From Vicinamibacterales bacterium (GTDB lineage: Bacteria; Acidobacteriota; Vicinamibacteria; Vicinamibacterales; 2-12-FULL-66-21): a stretch of DNA of 64,000 nt. Where the stretch lies: the NCBI GenBank assembly GCA_035699745.1, contig DASSPH010000048.1, positions 1 to 64,000 of the forward strand, given 5' to 3'. Each line of letters starts with the position of its first letter. The first letter of the stretch is position 1. Both the position numbers and the translations under genes were made by a program. Below, piece after piece: positions 53,611-53,701 of the stretch. The notes under the pieces were generated by a model that searched no databases, had not been told where the DNA came from, and saw nothing but the letters and a program-made list of their open reading frames with translations.

Positions 53611-53701
53611 GTTGCCGGTTACCGGTTGCCGGTTGCCGGTTACCAGTTGCCGGTTGCCGGTTGCCGGTTACCGGTTACCGGTTACCGGTTACCGGTTACC
53701 G
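53611..53701. repeat. Tandem array of GTTRCCG heptamers
   Basis: Thirteen uninterrupted 7-base units (GTTGCCG or GTTACCG, one ending A). The first part alternates G and A forms and the last five are all GTTACCG, which suggests recent expansion at that end. It fills the space between the SUI1 promoter and the stop codon of the YghA-like gene, both on the minus strand. Confidence 0.95.

Follow-up and report, generated by a model that had tools for sequence, protein, structure and literature searches.

Heptanucleotide repeats are reportedly over-represented among prokaryotes in general, as Mrazek is said to have noted in 2007. Period 7 is described as the most abundant class of such repeats in most prokaryotic genomes, with slippage and the size of the polymerase contact proposed as explanation, in the sections of two papers that are drawn on here (PMC4692102, PMC4679880). 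The seven-base preference has therefore been in print since 2007, and the polymerase-contact hypothesis comes without a test in those same sections (PMC4692102, PMC4679880). In Xanthomonas, GGGAATC heptamers are dispersed and intergenic, with few lying between divergent genes and many forming inverted pairs, and with no settled function given in the parts of Rehm et al. 2015 that are used here (PMC4692102). Those repeats often are found less than 50 bp from the stop codon of the 5' gene or instead overlap it. The GGGGAYT repeats of Nostoc/Anabaena, along with the heptanucleotides of Calothrix, are likewise described there as dispersed intergenic heptamers (PMC4692102). In the marine Beggiatoaceae, TAACTGA arrays are found, most of them just upstream of start codons, according to the sections of MacGregor 2015 that are used here (PMC4679880).

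So far as those sections allow comparison, the GTTRCCG array considered here resembles the Xanthomonas repeats in possessing a 7-base unit, in being found at many dispersed and mostly intergenic sites, in forming inverted pairs, and in its adjacency to stop codons, as seen with a 719-kb sample of its own genome (G000). It differs from them in that GTTRCCG has no GGG tract, hence no G-quadruplex of that type, and in that many different heptamers coexist in G000; the lineage differs as well. Dispersed intergenic arrays are common also to the cyanobacterial systems, the units of which nonetheless differ, and inverted pairs are few in Nostoc as described. The cyanobacterial parallel that was drawn in the preliminary description of this DNA thus is right in kind. 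With the TAACTGA arrays of Beggiatoaceae, GTTRCCG shares a mostly intergenic placement, a patchy presence across distant phyla, and, when read in one orientation, stops in each of the three frames. Unlike those arrays, however, most of which are described as preceding start codons, the arrays of G000 often are located at stop codons.

Bacterial heptamer repeats as a kind are, that is, already known. What is added here is the variety of units within one lineage along with a clear anchoring at stop codons in G000. A literature search found no work on tandem repeats in vicinamibacter. The genomes of this family, with many different heptamers and almost no equally strong 5- or 6-base arrays in the samples, are suited to testing for a step size that is set by a polymerase, and the arrays of G000, many of which lie behind rather than before genes, make it easier to tell repeat growth apart from gene regulation.

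The locus is part of the window, i.e., the whole 64,000-nucleotide stretch that was analysed. The proteins of the host would suggest Acidobacteriota. Its features, together with those of a second array in the window, are as follows.

53611..53703, GTTRCCG on the plus strand and CGGYAAC when read in the direction of the flanking genes (minus): heptamer array of 13.3 copies (TRF, unit listing)
53667..53701: homogeneous end of that array, five identical GTTACCG units, adjoining the SDR stop codon (unit listing)
53706..53708, minus strand: TAA stop codon that ends the SDR gene and directly adjoins the periodic stretch (sequence)
53706..54500, minus strand: upstream, co-directional gene for a short-chain dehydrogenase/reductase (SDR), the called start being approximate (gene call)
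53596..53601, minus strand: TACAGT hexamer, taken to be the -10 box of the preliminary description, 9 bases off the array edge (sequence)
53244..53588, minus strand: downstream gene for a SUI1-domain protein, with a GTG start at 53588 or instead TTG at 53594 (gene call)
52278..53243, minus strand: Gfo/Idh/MocA oxidoreductase, abutting the SUI1 gene (position, Pfam)
50740..52281, minus strand: GMC oxidoreductase, overlapping the Gfo/Idh/MocA gene (position, Pfam)
50231..50743, minus strand: glyoxalase-superfamily protein, last gene of the SUI1 set (position, Pfam)
18285..18379: another period-7 array in the window, chiefly GCRCTGC, abutting a TAG stop codon (TRF, unit listing)

At 53611-53703, TRF reports a period of 7 over 93 bases, with 91% matches and a score of 137. 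The array that had been described is therefore present, as are its five identical end units. The formula of thirteen GTTRCCG units holds for 12 of the 13 full units, these being six of GTTACCG and six of GTTGCCG, but does not hold for the remaining one, GTTACCA at 53639. Period 7 is matched at 79 of 86 positions, the highest among periods 4-30 in the window, and the runner-up period of 14 is a harmonic of 7. The periodic stretch continues to 53705, leaving zero bases before the stop codon of the SDR gene (ORF 53706-54740, Pfam adh_short_C2, 1.6e-56). Searching the window with Rfam at the gathering threshold gave zero matches. The array at 18285-18379, in which some 6-base units are interspersed among GCRCTGC heptamers, differs in its unit but has in common both period 7 and the abutting of a stop codon. 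The preliminary description thus was right in pointing to another sequence of the same period there.

Repeats were surveyed in a 719-kb G000 sample, consisting of 41 stretches of which 22 were fetched because they hold a GTTRCCG array, and in blind samples, i.e., stretches not picked for an array, of G000 (313 kb, including the window), G004 (200 kb), G008 (328 kb), and G055 (200 kb). Summed over the four blind samples, of which those of G000 and G008 consist largely of contig starts and short contigs and may be richer in repeats than average, intergenic arrays number 69 with period 7 versus 0 with period 5, 3 with period 6, 9 with period 8, 8 with period 9, and 2 with period 10. Period 14 is reported 39 times between genes, as would be expected if period-7 arrays recur there as their harmonic. 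Coding arrays in the same samples number 3 (period 6), 17 (period 7), and 4 (period 9). With TRF, period 7 is the commonest also in the 719-kb sample (37 of 197 merged arrays at a score of at least 50), and 15 period-7 arrays there score at least 100. Controls shuffled in 300-base blocks gave no exact 3-copy run, for periods 6-15, in any of the five sample sets. The period-7 excess in the samples examined is real.

The units themselves are many. Exact runs of at least 3 copies yield 22 distinct intergenic heptamer units in the 719-kb sample. G008 has zero matches to the GTTRCCG pattern, yet has many other heptamers; a CAGCTTC-type pattern is matched there 39 times (control 0). In G000 the latter pattern gives 5 matches versus 3 in the reversed control, and only the numbers from relatives, with a control of 0, are used. 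The GCRCTGC pattern of the array at 18285 has 8 matches (control 0), found in G000 only among 12 family genomes. Given a period-7 excess that involves so many different units in the samples, the earlier suggestion of a shared process of repeat growth is reasonable.

Placement relative to genes was judged using a simple codon-model caller of our own, trained on G000, for which starts are approximate. Called coding sequence makes up 91% of the 719-kb sample, yet 52 of its 62 period-7 arrays are intergenic, as are 17 of 23 in the blind G000 stretches. Within co-directional gaps of the 719-kb sample, 18 of 33 arrays (occupying 29 distinct gaps) lie no more than 8 bp from a stop codon and 3 of 33 no more than 8 bp from a start. 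Uniform placement predicts 5.0 of each, and 18 or more at the stop were reached in 0 of 20,000 random placements. Arrays simply nearer to the stop than to the start number 21 of 33, which is no significant excess (p 0.16). The arrays, that is, pile up at the stop codon rather than displaying a general shift towards it. In the blind samples, arrays within 8 bp of stop versus start number 6 and 1 of 14 (G000), 5 and 4 of 18 (G004), 5 and 2 of 14 (G008), and 1 and 0 of 2 (G055), such that the direction is kept, but with a weaker effect and with nearly none in G004.

Between convergent versus divergent genes, arrays of the 719-kb sample number 16:3, as compared with 43:73 when every gap of 40 bp or more is counted (Fisher p 2.5e-4). 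The corresponding blind-sample ratios are 3:0 (G000), 2:2 (G004), 3:6 (G008), and 0:3 (G055), and the convergent bias thus is mainly a property of G000 and of loci picked for GTTRCCG. As a share of intergenic arrays, those between divergent genes are 3/52 in the 719-kb sample, 6/23 in blind G008, and 3/5 in blind G055. Units of the 719-kb sample run in either direction with respect to the upstream gene; by eye, stop-adjacent co-directional GTTRCCG arrays are 6 in sense and 3 in antisense, with ambiguous L043 left out. At 36 array-abutting gene ends the stop codon is TAG in 14, TAA in 11, and TGA in 11, versus 179, 72, and 312, respectively, for all called genes, though this lean towards TAA and TAG is partly built in, as sense units contain TAA or TAG. 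At L059 9942, L073 9907, and L075 9953-9990, GTTRCCG arrays are found behind genes that end in TTC (phenylalanine) and then stop. A terminal phenylalanine is a frequent end of outer-membrane barrel proteins.

The specific GTTRCCG unit is dispersed as well. In the 6.3-Mb own genome, a three-unit pattern gives 73 exact matches versus 0 for the reversed control, which by our grouping represent 23 loci. Naively, this exceeds what is expected of independent random seeding, and copying, gene conversion, or sequence preference therefore may act in its recurrence. Excluding the own genome, the pattern is present in 3 of 59 relatives, drawn such that none is of the same genus as G000: G004 (same family) along with G037 and G055 (another family). 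Also excluding the own genome, it is present in 4 of 395 others from a phylum-wide draw, one of which, the distant G122, has 38 matches. A scan of named genomes using a four-unit pattern, which yields no per-taxon counts, matched at least 120 stretches; among the 80 matches listed are Streptomyces, Bacteroidetes, Burkholderia relatives, and others. For 32 of 120 such loci (at least 120 exist), no frame free of stops runs through the array for as many as 150 codons, and the remaining ones may be coding or instead merely long open frames in GC-rich DNA. This combination of patchiness and breadth would be better accounted for by repeated birth than by descent. As a separate observation, G055 (contigs C1-C23; another family of the same order) has 186 exact three-unit matches, mostly of GTTGCCG among the matches listed, yet its 200-kb blind sample contains just 5 period-7 arrays that are intergenic.

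GTTACCG is a near-palindrome, self-pairing at 6/7 positions, whereas GTTGCCG self-pairs at 4/7; GCACTGC self-pairs at 6/7. As single-stranded DNA, the array at 53611-53703 is predicted to fold with z of -5.6 (plus strand) and -4.7 (minus strand) relative to shuffled controls, and as RNA in the gene sense, including 17 further bases, with -55.2 kcal/mol (z -5.7). Very stable RNA folds are predicted for this locus and for four other loci that were folded. At some loci orientation flips within the array, resulting in predicted hairpins which are long and nearly unbroken, and at two loci there is a perfect 30-base inverted form. For the array at 18285, one strand of DNA folds with z -5.4, while the plus strand, at z -1.7, folds no better than shuffles. 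Over the 22 units of G000, mean self-pairing is 4.09 versus 3.94 for letter-shuffled units, 6/7 is reached by 4/22 versus 13%, and 18/22 self-pair at 4/7 or less. Hairpin-driven growth as a general cause is rejected, given self-pairing of the 22 units that is not clearly above shuffles and the z of -1.7 for the 18285 plus strand. GTTACCG hairpins nevertheless could aid slippage at 53611-53703 in particular, as opposed to among heptamers in general.

In our reading, with a probability of about 0.72, the array is a heptameric simple-sequence repeat that owes its growth to slippage and is tolerated in its place directly behind a gene, one of the many intergenic period-7 arrays in G000. A short seed would have arisen by chance directly behind the stop codon, and slipped-strand replication would then have lengthened it in 7-base steps. 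A 7-base loop would be too large for efficient correction by mismatch repair, with longer repeat units described as escaping such repair in the portion of the source that is cited (PMC4060949). Growth presumably would be tolerated where it spares both coding frames and ribosome-binding sites, and arrays thus would come to pile up at stop codons, a position seen in G000 for which tolerance is the probable cause. If the SDR gene and the SUI1 set are co-transcribed, as their shared direction suggests, then the array would be a long intercistronic hairpin, and its effect, if any, would be on RNA processing or read-through rather than on promoter spacing. Mismatch-repair loss is rejected as a cause. 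The own genome gives three MutS-domain matches and thus has not simply lost MutS, and a MutS_V domain is found in 11/12 family genomes, the own genome included, the exception being 57% complete.

Slippage alone does not explain the strong preference for 7. It is conceivable, if distinctly unlikely, that a seven-base step is built into the repeat-making of this lineage and that some arrays have been adopted as stop-anchored 3'-end elements, providing redundant all-frame stops along with a hairpin. Were this so, the seven-base step would reveal a physical property of the lineage's replicative or repair polymerase.

The preliminary description had placed the array beside a promoter, with changes in copy number tuning the expression of four genes, an idea which we regard as very unlikely. 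Its gene set does stand, i.e., the SUI1, Gfo/Idh/MocA, GMC oxidoreductase, and glyoxalase genes abut or overlap on the minus strand and have Pfam matches. So does a hexamer, TACAGT, which is separated from the array by 9 bases. The gap that extends from the SDR stop to the SUI1 GTG start furthermore is 117 bases long, with 95 of them periodic, so that a separate SUI1 promoter would need array DNA. Nonetheless, scanning found no -35 to accompany that hexamer and no sigma-70-type site anywhere in 53400-53900, which is weak evidence as the scan was strict, sigma-70 only, and empty in shuffled copies too. The upstream gene also is co-directional, its stop codon touched by the array, and the divergent gaps of G000 hold few arrays (3 versus 16 in convergent ones). 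Divergent gaps are where promoters concentrate. Nor is the neighbourhood of SUI1 conserved. The SUI1 domain (ORF 53244-53594, Pfam 5.1e-16, with the start region seen also in five relatives) is found in 6/12 family genomes, the own genome included, but for those five relatives tblastn over the 2.3-3.3 kb that was fetched gave no match to SDR, Gfo/Idh/MocA, or GMC, and by eye there is no GTTRCCG array in the 220 bases upstream of SUI1. In one of them, G009 (L240), a different repeat of approximately 10 bases, of CACGGTTCAA type, is seen by eye upstream of SUI1.

A functional 3'-end element would shift attention from the following to the preceding gene, with the hairpin of the transcribed array protecting upstream mRNA or stopping transcription, and doing so in both directions within convergent gaps. 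The stop-codon pile-up in G000, the stable predicted RNA folds at five loci, the two perfect inverted forms, and the convergent enrichment of the 719-kb sample all are consistent with such a role, but that enrichment is absent from the G004, G008, and G055 samples, the units are not uniformly oriented to the gene upstream, and many weakly self-pairing heptamers occupy similar positions. There also is no intrinsic terminator, i.e., hairpin followed by a T-run, at 53611-53703; the lone terminator-like site that was reported, at 53806-53787, falls within the SDR gene and is no more than chance would give. On balance this role is unlikely. Highly improbable is that new sites receive copies of the heptamer from a transposase, in REP/RAYT style, or from some other enzyme, despite the 23 GTTRCCG loci, the patchy distribution among relatives (3/59 and 4/395), and the three Y1_Tnp genes of the genome. 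Within 3.5-4.2 kb around those three genes there is no period-7 or period-8 array, and a REP/BIME element with RAYT is rejected as no arrays flank them. The flanks of 25 GTTRCCG-class arrays have nothing in common beyond neighbouring array DNA, except for six short matches (17-39 bases, E ~0.001), such that no larger shared element and hence no mobile element is seen. Many different units within one genome, and the recurrence of GTTRCCG in many unrelated taxa among the matches listed, point likewise away from such copying.

Repeats other than heptamers are found as well. Within the window, at 33252-33369, GGGGACAGTCCCC palindromes form the basis of a 48/25-base tandem repeat that is unlike the heptamers. 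Elsewhere in G000, eight-base arrays (CCCGATCG, CCCGATCA) at L038 9503-9588, L067 2830-2891, and L074 2074-2125 constitute a smaller second repeat class. Nine-base CGGGTTCTA arrays are located at L044 11199-11302 and L076 1935-2110, with CCCGTAGAA alongside in L076. Tandem repeats of 27-28 bases, having in common a GGTCAGGTCTGCAAACGGGC-like unit, occupy L058 1-380 (contig C6 from 1900) and L039 1-224 (the start of contig C15).
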